A DNA stretch of 64,000 nucleotides from Halosolutus gelatinilyticus (GTDB lineage Archaea > Halobacteriota > Halobacteria > Halobacteriales > Natrialbaceae): the NCBI RefSeq assembly GCF_023028105.1, contig NZ_CP095491.1, positions 992,001 to 1,056,000 of the forward strand. Reading direction: 5' to 3'. Within the stretch, counting starts at the first letter, position 1; every line of letters starts with the position of its first letter. Under the pieces are notes generated by a model that had not been told where the DNA came from, ran no database searches, and worked only from the letters and a program-made list of their open reading frames with translations. Below, piece after piece: positions 29,499 to 55,356 of the stretch. Position numbers and translations under genes: made by a program.

Positions 29499-29789
29499 GG
29501 CCGTCAGCGGTCAGTCTCCCTCGTATTCGTGCGAACTACTCGCACGACCGTATCCATTTGGTCTCCGGTTCGGGCCGCGGATCCGAACGTTCGGCTCGAT
29601 CGCCGTTCTCCACCTCGAATCCCGTGTTCCGTCGCTGCCGCTCGCGTATGTGCTCGCGACAGGACGACTCGGACCGAACGGGTTCGACGAGACTTGAATT
29701 AGCAAACGGCGAGTGAAACGAGCCGTTCACGTGGTTCAAATCTGCGCGATCCGCTAGTCGCACCTCATCGGCGTTCGTCGCAGAATAGC
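29499..29789. other. gap downstream of tRNA-Arg, no clear gene
   Basis: About 290 bases between the DUF892 gene and the tRNA 3' end. Minus-strand frames reading out of the tRNA are arginine/serine-rich and unconvincing. Regions after archaeal tRNAs are common integration sites, but I found no integrase fragment and no repeat of the tRNA 3' end. Confidence 0.4.
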
Positions 29790-29861
29790 GGGCGCGACGG
29801 GATTTGAACCCGCGACATCTTGGTCCGGAACCAAGGACTCTGTCCACTGAGCTACGCGCCC
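29790..29861 (-). tRNA. tRNA-Arg (anticodon CCG)
   Basis: The 72-base minus-strand sequence folds as a cloverleaf. The acceptor stem is GGGCGCG/CGCGCCC, the D arm is GCTC...GAGT, and the anticodon stem CTTGG/CCAAG closes the loop TTCCGGA with anticodon CCG (codon CGG). The T arm GCGGG-TTCAAAT-CCCGT has the standard TTC. No intron and no encoded CCA are present. Confidence 0.96.
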
Positions 29862-52842: not shown

Positions 52843-53742
52843 ATGCAACTGGGCGTAATCGGACTCGGACGCATGGGGCAGATCGTCGTCGATCGAACGC
52901 TGGCGGCCGGCCACGACGTCGTCGCCTTCGACCTCGACCCCGACCCCGTGGCGACGGCCGCCGACGCCGGCGCCGAACCGGCGGACTCGATCGCGAATCT
53001 GGCCGATCGACTCGGCGACGACAAGCGCATCTGGCTGATGGTCCCCGCGGGCGACCCCGTCGACGCGACGCTCGAGGAACTCGACCCGCGCCTCGACGCG
53101 GACGACGTGGTCGTCGACGGCGGCAACTCCTACTTCGAGGACTCCGTTCGGCGCGCAGCGGCCTGCTCCGCGGCCTACCTCGACTGCGGCACCTCCGGCG
53201 GTCCCGCGGGGGCGGAACTCGGCTTCTCCCTGATGGTCGGCGGCCCCGAGTGGGCCTACGAGGAACTCTCGCCGGTCTTCGACGCGGTCGCGACCGGCCC
53301 CGACGGCCACGAGCGCATGGGTCCCGCGGGTTCCGGCCACTACGTCAAGATGGTCCACAACGGCGTCGAGTACGCGCTGATGCAGGCCTACGGCGAAGGG
53401 TTCGAACTCCTCCACGAGGGTCGGTACGACCTCGACCTCGAGAAGGTCGCCTCGGTCTGGAACAACGGCGCGGTGATCCGATCGTGGCTGCTCGAACTCT
53501 GCAAGGAGGCGTTCCGCGAGGAGGGCACCGACCTCGGCGACGTCGCCGATCGGGTCGAGGGCGGCTCGACGGGCACCTGGACGGTCCAGGAGGCCCTCGA
53601 ACAGGAGGTCCCGCTGCCGCTGATCTACACCTCGCTTTCCGAACGGTTCGGCTCCCGGGCCGACGACGGCCGCTTCTCGCGACGACTCGCGAACCGGCTG
53701 CGGTACGGCTTCGGCCGCCACGAGGTTCAACGGCAGGAGTAA
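52843..53742 (+). CDS. gnd: 6-phosphogluconate dehydrogenase, decarboxylating
   Basis: It oxidises and decarboxylates 6-phosphogluconate to ribulose 5-phosphate in the oxidative pentose phosphate pathway. The 299-residue protein is the short haloarchaeal type. It has a Rossmann start GLGRMGQ, a VVDGGNSYFEDS Asn region, GTSGGPAGAELGFSLMVGG for the substrate site, and KMVHNGVEYALMQAYGEG with the catalytic Lys. Start ATG 52843; the earlier frame would add basic residues. Confidence 0.93.
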   Translation: MQLGVIGLGRMGQIVVDRTLAAGHDVVAFDLDPDPVATAADAGAEPADSIANLADRLGDDKRIWLMVPAGDPVDATLEELDPRLDADDVVVDGGNSYFEDSVRRAAACSAAYLDCGTSGGPAGAELGFSLMVGGPEWAYEELSPVFDAVATGPDGHERMGPAGSGHYVKMVHNGVEYALMQAYGEGFELLHEGRYDLDLEKVASVWNNGAVIRSWLLELCKEAFREEGTDLGDVADRVEGGSTGTWTVQEALEQEVPLPLIYTSLSERFGSRADDGRFSRRLANRLRYGFGRHEVQRQE

Positions 53743-53814
53743 CGTCCAGGTTGTCGGATTTTCGCAGTAGAGATTCGATCGGTATGGGATGCGGACGGTA
53801 CTGCGACGATCGAA

Positions 53815-54030
53815 AACACCACGAAAGCCCCTGGCGTTGAGCAGACGCTCCGCATCTGCTCAACGACAGCCCCTTTCACTCCCACCCGTTCTGGCTACTC
53901 GGACAGGCCACCGCGGGTGGGAGTGAAAGGGGCTGGCACTCTCGAGGAAGGCGCGCGATGCAAGCACCGAACGACGTGAGGTGCGCAGCGAGCGCACCGA
54001 CTTGAGAGTGTCAGGGGCTTTCGTGGTGTT
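53815..54030. repeat. 216-base cloverleaf-like inverted-repeat element
   Basis: A perfect 19-bp outer stem (aacaccacgaaagcccctg at 53815-53833 and its complement at 54012-54030) encloses three arms. The first is gttgagcag/ctgctcaac (53836-53844/53856-53864). The second is a perfect 20-bp stem agcccctttcactcccaccc (53868-53887) with its complement at 53915-53934. The third is an 11-bp stem with two G-U pairs (53936-53946/54001-54011) holding an inner hairpin ggtgcgc/gcgcacc (53980-53986/53992-53998). No gene fits inside. The G-U pairs hint at an RNA, and the long perfect arms at a palindromic insertion unit. Confidence 0.75.
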
Positions 54031-54075
54031 GTAATACCGAGAGATCGGTTGTCTCTGAACCGAATCGATGATCGA

Positions 54076-55356
54076 TTACGACGAGGTGCCGGAATCCGCG
54101 CTCTCGGACTCCCTTTCTTCCTCTTCGTCTGCGTCCGTCTCAGTCACCGATCGGAACGCGTCGAGGATGACCTGCTTCGCGACCGCGCCGCGGGAGGTCC
54201 AGTGGGTCGCGTAGTCGAGCATGTCGTCGTAGATGTCGGGTTTGCAACCCGCGGCCTTGGGGTGGCCGCCGCCGTTGACCAGGCCCGCGACCTCGTGGCA
54301 GCGATCGAATTCGTCGGTGCCGCGGATCGAGGCGGAGCCGGCGGGTTTGACGATCACGGAGGCGTCGGCGCCCTGCTCGCGCATCGCCTCGGCGACTTCG
54401 TTCTGCGAGCAGCGGCCGTAGGTGACGCCGACCGTGTAGCCGCCGATCTCGCGGAGGTCCGCGCGGGCGACGGCGCGATCGATCAGCGCCTGCTTCTCGA
54501 CGCGGCGCTCCTCGAGGAAGGCCAGGACCCACTCGGGGAGGTCGGCGCCGTACTCGCGGACGACCTCGACGTACTCGGCCGGATCGGTCCAGTAGGCGAA
54601 GTCCGCGAGGTCGTCGCTGCGGGGGTCCTCGCGCAGCCAGAGGTCGTGGTCCCGGGTGACGGCTGCGAGTTCCTCGTACCGCTCGTCGAAGTCGTACTCG
54701 AGCGATCGGTAGACGACGTCCGCGCTGCACTCCTCGTCCGAGTCGCCGACGACGAGGTCGACGCCGGCGTCGCGAACGGCCGCGGCGACGTCGTCGTGCC
54801 ACTGGTGGTGGTCGTACCAGGCGACTCGCGAGGCCGCGTCGAGCGCCATCGCGAGTTCCTCCTCGACGTACTCGTACTTGTCCGGCGCGAGGTCGCAGAC
54901 GTAGAGGTCGATTCCGTCGTCGCCGTACTCGGCGACTCGGGCCAGCGCGTCTTCGACGTCGTGGGGGCCGGCCGGGACGAGGGCGACGGAGTGCGGCGTC
55001 GGTTCGGGTTCGTCGAGCGGACTCTCCGCGTCGCCCGCGAGGACGGTGGGGTCCGCCTCGACGTCGTCGACGGCGTCGGCCGCCTCGGGCTCCGGGGCCG
55101 AGTCGTCTGCTTCGTCACCGTCCGGTTCCGGCACGTTCCGGACGTCGTCGTAGGCCTCCCGGAGCAGGGCGACGCAGGCCAGGCCGTCCGCGTCGGGGTC
55201 GGCGACGACGGCGACCTCGGCGCCCTCGAGCGCGGCTGCCGTCCGTTCGTCTTCGAGGTCCTCCTCCAGGGAATCGGGCAAGAAGAAGCCGGTTCCCGGC
55301 AGGACGGACTTGCGGGCGATCGACAAGTCGCGGCTGTCGATGAGCTCGTCGTACAT
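54076..55356 (-). CDS. DHH/DHHA1-family phosphoesterase
   Basis: The 426-residue protein belongs to the RecJ/DHH superfamily of metal-dependent phosphoesterases that cleave cyclic dinucleotides, oligonucleotides or single-stranded DNA. It has VVADPDADGLA near residues 51-60 (motif I), CDLAPD, AWYDHHQWHDD (the DHH motif III), a later DHDLW, and the DHHA1 GGGHPKAAG. A very acidic linker (about 75-130) interrupts the first part. The exact substrate is unresolved. Start ATG 55354-55356. Confidence 0.9.
   Translation of the reverse strand: MYDELIDSRDLSIARKSVLPGTGFFLPDSLEEDLEDERTAAALEGAEVAVVADPDADGLACVALLREAYDDVRNVPEPDGDEADDSAPEPEAADAVDDVEADPTVLAGDAESPLDEPEPTPHSVALVPAGPHDVEDALARVAEYGDDGIDLYVCDLAPDKYEYVEEELAMALDAASRVAWYDHHQWHDDVAAAVRDAGVDLVVGDSDEECSADVVYRSLEYDFDERYEELAAVTRDHDLWLREDPRSDDLADFAYWTDPAEYVEVVREYGADLPEWVLAFLEERRVEKQALIDRAVARADLREIGGYTVGVTYGRCSQNEVAEAMREQGADASVIVKPAGSASIRGTDEFDRCHEVAGLVNGGGHPKAAGCKPDIYDDMLDYATHWTSRGAVAKQVILDAFRSVTETDADEEEERESESADSGTSS

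Follow-up and report, generated by a model that had tools for sequence, protein, structure and literature searches.

Among described systems, those nearest to the element considered here are haloarchaeal MITEs of the IS6 type and the Haloquadratum SMRs. The former, among them ISFinder MITEHarch3 (named in PMC6807381), are short and noncoding with terminal inverted repeats (TIRs) and 8–9-bp duplications, and the archaeal IS6 group ISH14/15/29 is 696–697 bp long with 8–9-bp duplications (PMC6807381). The SMR-A/B elements of Haloquadratum walsbyi are gene-less, measure approximately 80–110 bp and occur in up to dozens of copies, with TIRs that match no transposon in the genome and without a target duplication; these small palindromic elements nest inside larger palindromes, SMR-A targeting those of PATE/IS605 type (PMC3119063). 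The searchable literature, covered mostly without subscription papers and without ISFinder, yielded the MITE, PATE and SMR papers and no published description of the present repeat family. The element analyzed here is very probably a copy of a non-autonomous, hairpin-built, MITE-like interspersed repeat family found throughout the haloarchaeal class.

Within the window (the whole 64-kb stretch of DNA analyzed), a 222-bp folded element was located between a gnd gene and a DHH gene. Its features are as follows.

52846–53742, + strand: gnd-like 6-phosphogluconate dehydrogenase gene, upstream neighbour, convergent (function as named in the preliminary description)
53812–54033, no strand assigned: whole element, 222 bp, in the order TIR, short arm, central hairpin, full arm, TIR
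53812–53831, + strand: left TIR GAAAACACCACGAAAGCCCC, one mismatch to the family consensus GAGAACACCACGAAAGCCCC
53835–53865, + strand: short replacement arm, a perfect 11-bp hairpin CGTTGAGCAGA/TCTGCTCAACG (fold)
53867–53935, + strand: central hairpin, perfect 22-bp stem and conserved loop motif (fold and family comparison)
53916–54022, − strand: core unit, GAAAGCCCC – arm – GCCCCTTTCACTCCCACC (match to model R1, 109.6 bits)
53936–54011, + strand: full arm hairpin, covarying outer stem GCACTCTCGAG/TTGAGAGTGT, interior semi-conserved (fold and covariation)
54014–54033, − strand: right TIR, TACAACACCACGAAAGCCCC on the − strand (TIR search)
54076–55356, − strand: DHH-family gene, downstream neighbour, convergent (function as named in the preliminary description)

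One arm is therefore full and the other replaced by a short hairpin, which is a trimmed version of a nested mini-hairpin arm seen in the copy at C1:2858652 and gave a weak R1 match (53823–53886, + strand, 48.9 bits). The central loop carries TGGCTACTCGGACAGGCCACCG, the family motif being CGGCTG..CGG...GCCACCG. The perfect 19-bp outer stem claimed in the preliminary description was recovered with all 19 pairs (53815–53833/54012–54030) and is among only five inverted pairs of at least 19 nt in the window at the settings used. The 216-base boundary (53815–54030) had to be widened to 53812–54033 to hold 20-bp TIRs, and the first arm, given as 9 bp, has a perfect stem of 11 bp (53835–53845/53855–53865). 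The next arm is perfect as had been said; its stem was put at 20 bp and measures 22–23 bp (53867–53888/53914–53935). The third arm is approximately 76 nt long; its outer stem has 11 bp and its inner stem is imperfect. The element was rightly called noncoding, as overlapping ORFs are all antisense or off-frame and it has no protein-coding ORF of its own. The RNA fold of 53790–54060 has a minimum free energy of −172.7 kcal/mol, whereas 200 shuffled sequences gave −100.5 ± 5.3 kcal/mol, none of them as stable (z −13.6). The sole Rfam match at gathering level in the window is a tRNA (29789–29861, − strand).

The host chromosome (3.9 Mb) holds approximately 45–50 copies, with about 49 places carrying the modular repeat; a BLAST search of this chromosome with the element returned 70 matching pieces. 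The 20-bp end was found at 64 chromosomal sites with at most three mismatches, while a reversed-pattern control gave none in the host genome and the TIR search of the other (plasmid) contigs of the host found no site. TIR pairs lie 74–438 bp apart. The full form reads TIR, arm, central hairpin, inverted arm, TIR, with one or both arms sometimes missing; copies are modular and often truncated, or bear mini-hairpins nested in the arms. In the smallest copy (74 bp) the central hairpin is reduced to its inner part between the two TIRs; the largest spans 438 bp. According to a rough ORF caller, some 45 of the 49 places are intergenic, i.e., outside predicted genes.

The nests are built of small perfect hairpins of variable stem, paired, with constant linkers, e.g., GTTCGA(hairpin)TCGTGATCACGA(hairpin)TCGAAC. 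They have a REPIN-like look in a host without a Y1 transposase and were seen at the following loci.

C1:2482431–2482672: nested mini-hairpins, locus L029
C1:1261250–1261535: nested mini-hairpins, locus L015
C1:2509868–2510157: nested mini-hairpins, locus L030
C1:2776565–2776862: nested mini-hairpins, locus L033
C1:1741010–1741447: nested mini-hairpins, locus L022

At two sites (C1:1859540 and 1868200) the element is absent from both congeners with collinear flanks, and the congener gaps are shorter by about the length of the element; the insertion junctions are not visible base by base, because the intergenic DNA of the empty-site species no longer aligns. The gnd–DHH interval, proposed earlier as an empty site, proved unusable for this comparison, since the gene pair is not conserved in the genus and gnd has other downstream genes in both congeners. 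No convincing target duplication was detected among the 31 host copies scanned, IS6-type ends are absent from the host copies, and no host TIR pair encloses a transposase or other gene, nor was an autonomous IS with the same TIR found. A search of the host for a Y1 transposase (PF01797) was negative with positive controls, and IS605/RAYT mobilization in the host was rejected on this ground. One TnpB zinc-ribbon match was present, and no TnpA. It should also be noted that an IS6-type TIR pair 231 bp apart and without an R1 core lies on plasmid contig C4 (58066–58296, L267) and represents a further small IS6-type MITE candidate.

A mobile relative was found in a genome of another family (G248). 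Its copies are near-identical (99% identity over approximately 350–377 bp) with sharp ends, carry GGTACTGTTTAGATTAGC outside the shared inner TIR and can be aligned with the window family over the full length of the cloverleaf, the central loop motif included. Exact 8- or 9-bp duplications (TCAGCGAC, TGTGACAGC, TCGAACCG and GGTGCGTGA) lie directly at the TIR ends in four of the eight TIR-bounded copies, the chance of an 8-mer duplication at a fixed offset being approximately 1.5e-5 per copy. The same genome has a 697-bp IS with a PF13610 transposase and TIRs matching those of the copies, which fits the archaeal IS6 group (PMC6807381). The cloverleaf has moved there in recent times, flanked by IS6-type ends. 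The window family can be regarded as a MITE-like passenger on account of these cloverleaf copies with target duplications and the IS6-family IS sharing their ends. Mobility of the superfamily is demonstrated in this relative, and we infer that a mobilizer exists or has existed in the host lineage. Separately, a 53-bp double hairpin inside the arm is present in four near-identical G248 copies (L247–L250) and absent from two (L251 and L252; contig C7), which shows a nested insertion in progress.

The non-autonomous palindromic insertion unit offered in the preliminary description is supported by the roughly 49 dispersed places, by lineage-specific presence and by a mobile relative of full architecture, which has TIRs and 8–9-bp target duplications and is accompanied by an IS6-family IS that matches it; the earlier interpretation as a whole is partly supported.

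To describe the core of the family, 48 of the 82 units found in loci were aligned into a 108-nt model (R1) of the form GAAAGCCCC – arm – GCCCCTTTCANTCCCACC. RNAalifold of these units gave 27 pairs, 19 of them with double changes. In the alignment 93.5% of cells are paired, and covariation scores 0.404, compared with 0.102 for shuffled and at most 0.098 for slid alignments. The unpaired stretches (CCC of GCCCC, CTCGCTGCG and TGCTT) are near-invariant. Such covarying stems and fixed unpaired bases suggest recognition of a folded single strand. The search of haloarchaeal genomes called for earlier found the core unit in 66 of 78 genera of the class (245 of 292 genomes), often with at least 13 matches per genome, and a one-off rearrangement is clearly not the case. 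Other genera have different end sequences, and both ends of full elements change together (CAGCAA/TTGCTG, CACCTC/GAGGTG and CATCTT/AAGATG). No match above the gathering score was obtained in Rfam 15, where miRNA-type and similar matches fell far below the cut-offs, and phages and viral contigs gave no match to the element. Across copies of many genomes no common neighbour gene of note appeared save a plasmid RPA-like gene.

The plasmid matches in Natrialbaceae are mostly not scattered; of the 17 records found initially, 11 place them approximately 350–620 bp upstream of this gene, which encodes an OB-fold protein of approximately 290 aa and occurs in 194 haloarchaeal plasmid records, pNRC100 included. 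R1 was detected at 23 loci, nearly all of them the leader of the RPA-like gene. These gave 10 pairs with double changes and 47 double-changed cells (17.6 when shuffled), with a covariation of 0.200 against 0.085. The alignment leans towards R1, and its counts of pairs and pair types are not clearly above shuffles. Fixation of the core fold at this plasmid site suggests a real function there. A broken RPA-like gene (stop/frameshift) with an R1 match upstream was also found on the host chromosome (C1:1905614–1906473, L208) and is a probable integrated plasmid piece.

The leader itself comprises approximately 700 nt of noncoding DNA that precedes the plasmid RPA-like/OB-fold gene. Several haloarchaeal families share it, and it is extremely folded, with energies of −400 to −500 kcal/mol per 950 nt. 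It has no Rfam family; an origin, an ssDNA promoter and a large RNA are possible identities. Its loci are as follows.

Plasmid leader: L177; L191 (pNRC100 144598–150491); L193 (pHME132); L173–L183; L192; L194; L195

The basic unit of the family is GAAAGCCCC – arm hairpin – GCCCCTTTCANTCCCACCC, and the full form consists of two such units, inverted, around the central hairpin, so that the outer GAAAGCCCC/GGGGCTTTC become the TIRs. Under the MITE-like reading, an enzyme provided from elsewhere would mobilize the repeat in trans, one of the IS6 family in the G248 lineage and another in the lineage of the window. Copies landing in genes would be purged and the remaining ones would decay. The folded strand, as ssDNA at replication or as RNA, may be recognized at some step of spreading; alternatively, the recognition might belong to the working of the copy that is fixed on plasmids ahead of the RPA-like gene. 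Against the MITE-like reading stand the host copies, lacking convincing target duplications, IS6 ends, a transposase-bearing TIR pair and a Y1 transposase, and against a pure parasite stands the part of the family fixed at one plasmid site.

A more speculative proposal, tentative and on balance doubtful, sees in the core unit a structured nucleic-acid module that is ancient in the haloarchaea and has a genuine task to perform. It would be the distal domain of the approximately 700-nt folded plasmid leader of the RPA-like ssDNA-binding protein gene, and the chromosomal repeats would be copies spread because the same folded strand serves as a mobility signal. The leader could then be, for example, a single-strand-activated promoter or a replication start, by analogy with leading-region ssDNA promoters.

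It is unlikely that every dispersed copy is a working structured small RNA gene or cis element with its fold under selection. The double-changed pairs, the invariant unpaired stretches, the very strong folds and a core conserved with covariation at a fixed plasmid site would agree with such a role, whereas the copies differ from one another in nested insertions, in truncation and in the loss of arms, their presence varies between congeners, and there is no Rfam family. The check for compensatory changes proposed in the preliminary description was positive, with 19 core pairs showing them, but in the host the TIR halves, off consensus at approximately 2 of 20 positions, drift independently in each copy (6 variants shared between halves against 4.8 in shuffled copies, p 0.33). 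The pairing is for this reason no sign of a functioning small RNA at every copy, and the non-shared variants are as expected for decaying inserts.

Considerably less probable is a DNA site, i.e., a cruciform-forming or protein-binding palindrome of BIME/REP-like kind with a nucleoid or supercoiling role, spread and kept for that role. Perfect dyad symmetry at several scales, mostly intergenic copies and the conserved loop of the central hairpin would suit it, but the plasmid contigs of the host have no copies by TIR search and many decayed copies are tolerated. By the same rough ORF calls, the neighbour genes are tandem at 26, divergent at 15 and convergent at 7 of 48 classable places, the convergent share being 7 of 48 against 13 of 50 neighbouring gene pairs in the window, with no bias to convergent genes or 3′ ends; this distribution does not agree with a terminator or 3′-end element. 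That the element terminates transcription in both directions between gnd and DHH, which are convergent, is hardly credible, for although position and strong hairpins agree at this one site, the divergent copies lie upstream of both genes, no T-run follows any stem of the window element in a scan for bacterial terminators, and the element is far bigger than required.

The MITE-like family is a class-wide haloarchaeal repeat of hairpins within hairpins, absent from Rfam and the searchable papers, which can be traced through stages of decay up to copies that moved recently. An IS6-family element is its sequence-level partner in one lineage, making the mover elsewhere a defined question, and its link to a conserved plasmid leader adjoining an ssDNA-binding protein gene is directly testable.

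In comparison with known systems, the host family resembles the bacterial REP/REPIN-RAYT and ERIC/Correia repeats in being intergenic and palindromic, and the nested paired mini-hairpins are REPIN-like; it differs in its much larger multi-armed fold and other sequences, and the REP-associated Y1 transposase is absent. The PATEs of Haloquadratum are likewise palindromic, transposase-free haloarchaeal repeats, but they have no TIRs and derive from IS605-type ends (PMC3119063), whereas the host family has prominent 20-bp TIRs. By description, the SMRs are alike in being gene-less and present in dozens of copies with nested palindromes, and within the host genome the TIRs are similarly unrelated to known transposons and without target duplication; the host copies differ in lying in intergenic DNA rather than in PATE/IS605 palindromes and in their range of 74–438 bp. 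As with MITEs in general, the host copies are short, noncoding and repeated with TIRs (64 sites, no ORF); target-site duplications and TIRs shared with an autonomous element are lacking in the host and present in G248, in four of eight copies and in the IS6-type IS, respectively. The window copy and its siblings, without IS6 ends or duplications, also depart from the IS6-family MITEs; the window copy lacks at least one defining feature of each of the two closest systems. The G248 relative, likened to MITEHarch3 by description rather than by sequence, has exactly the features of the IS6-family MITEs.
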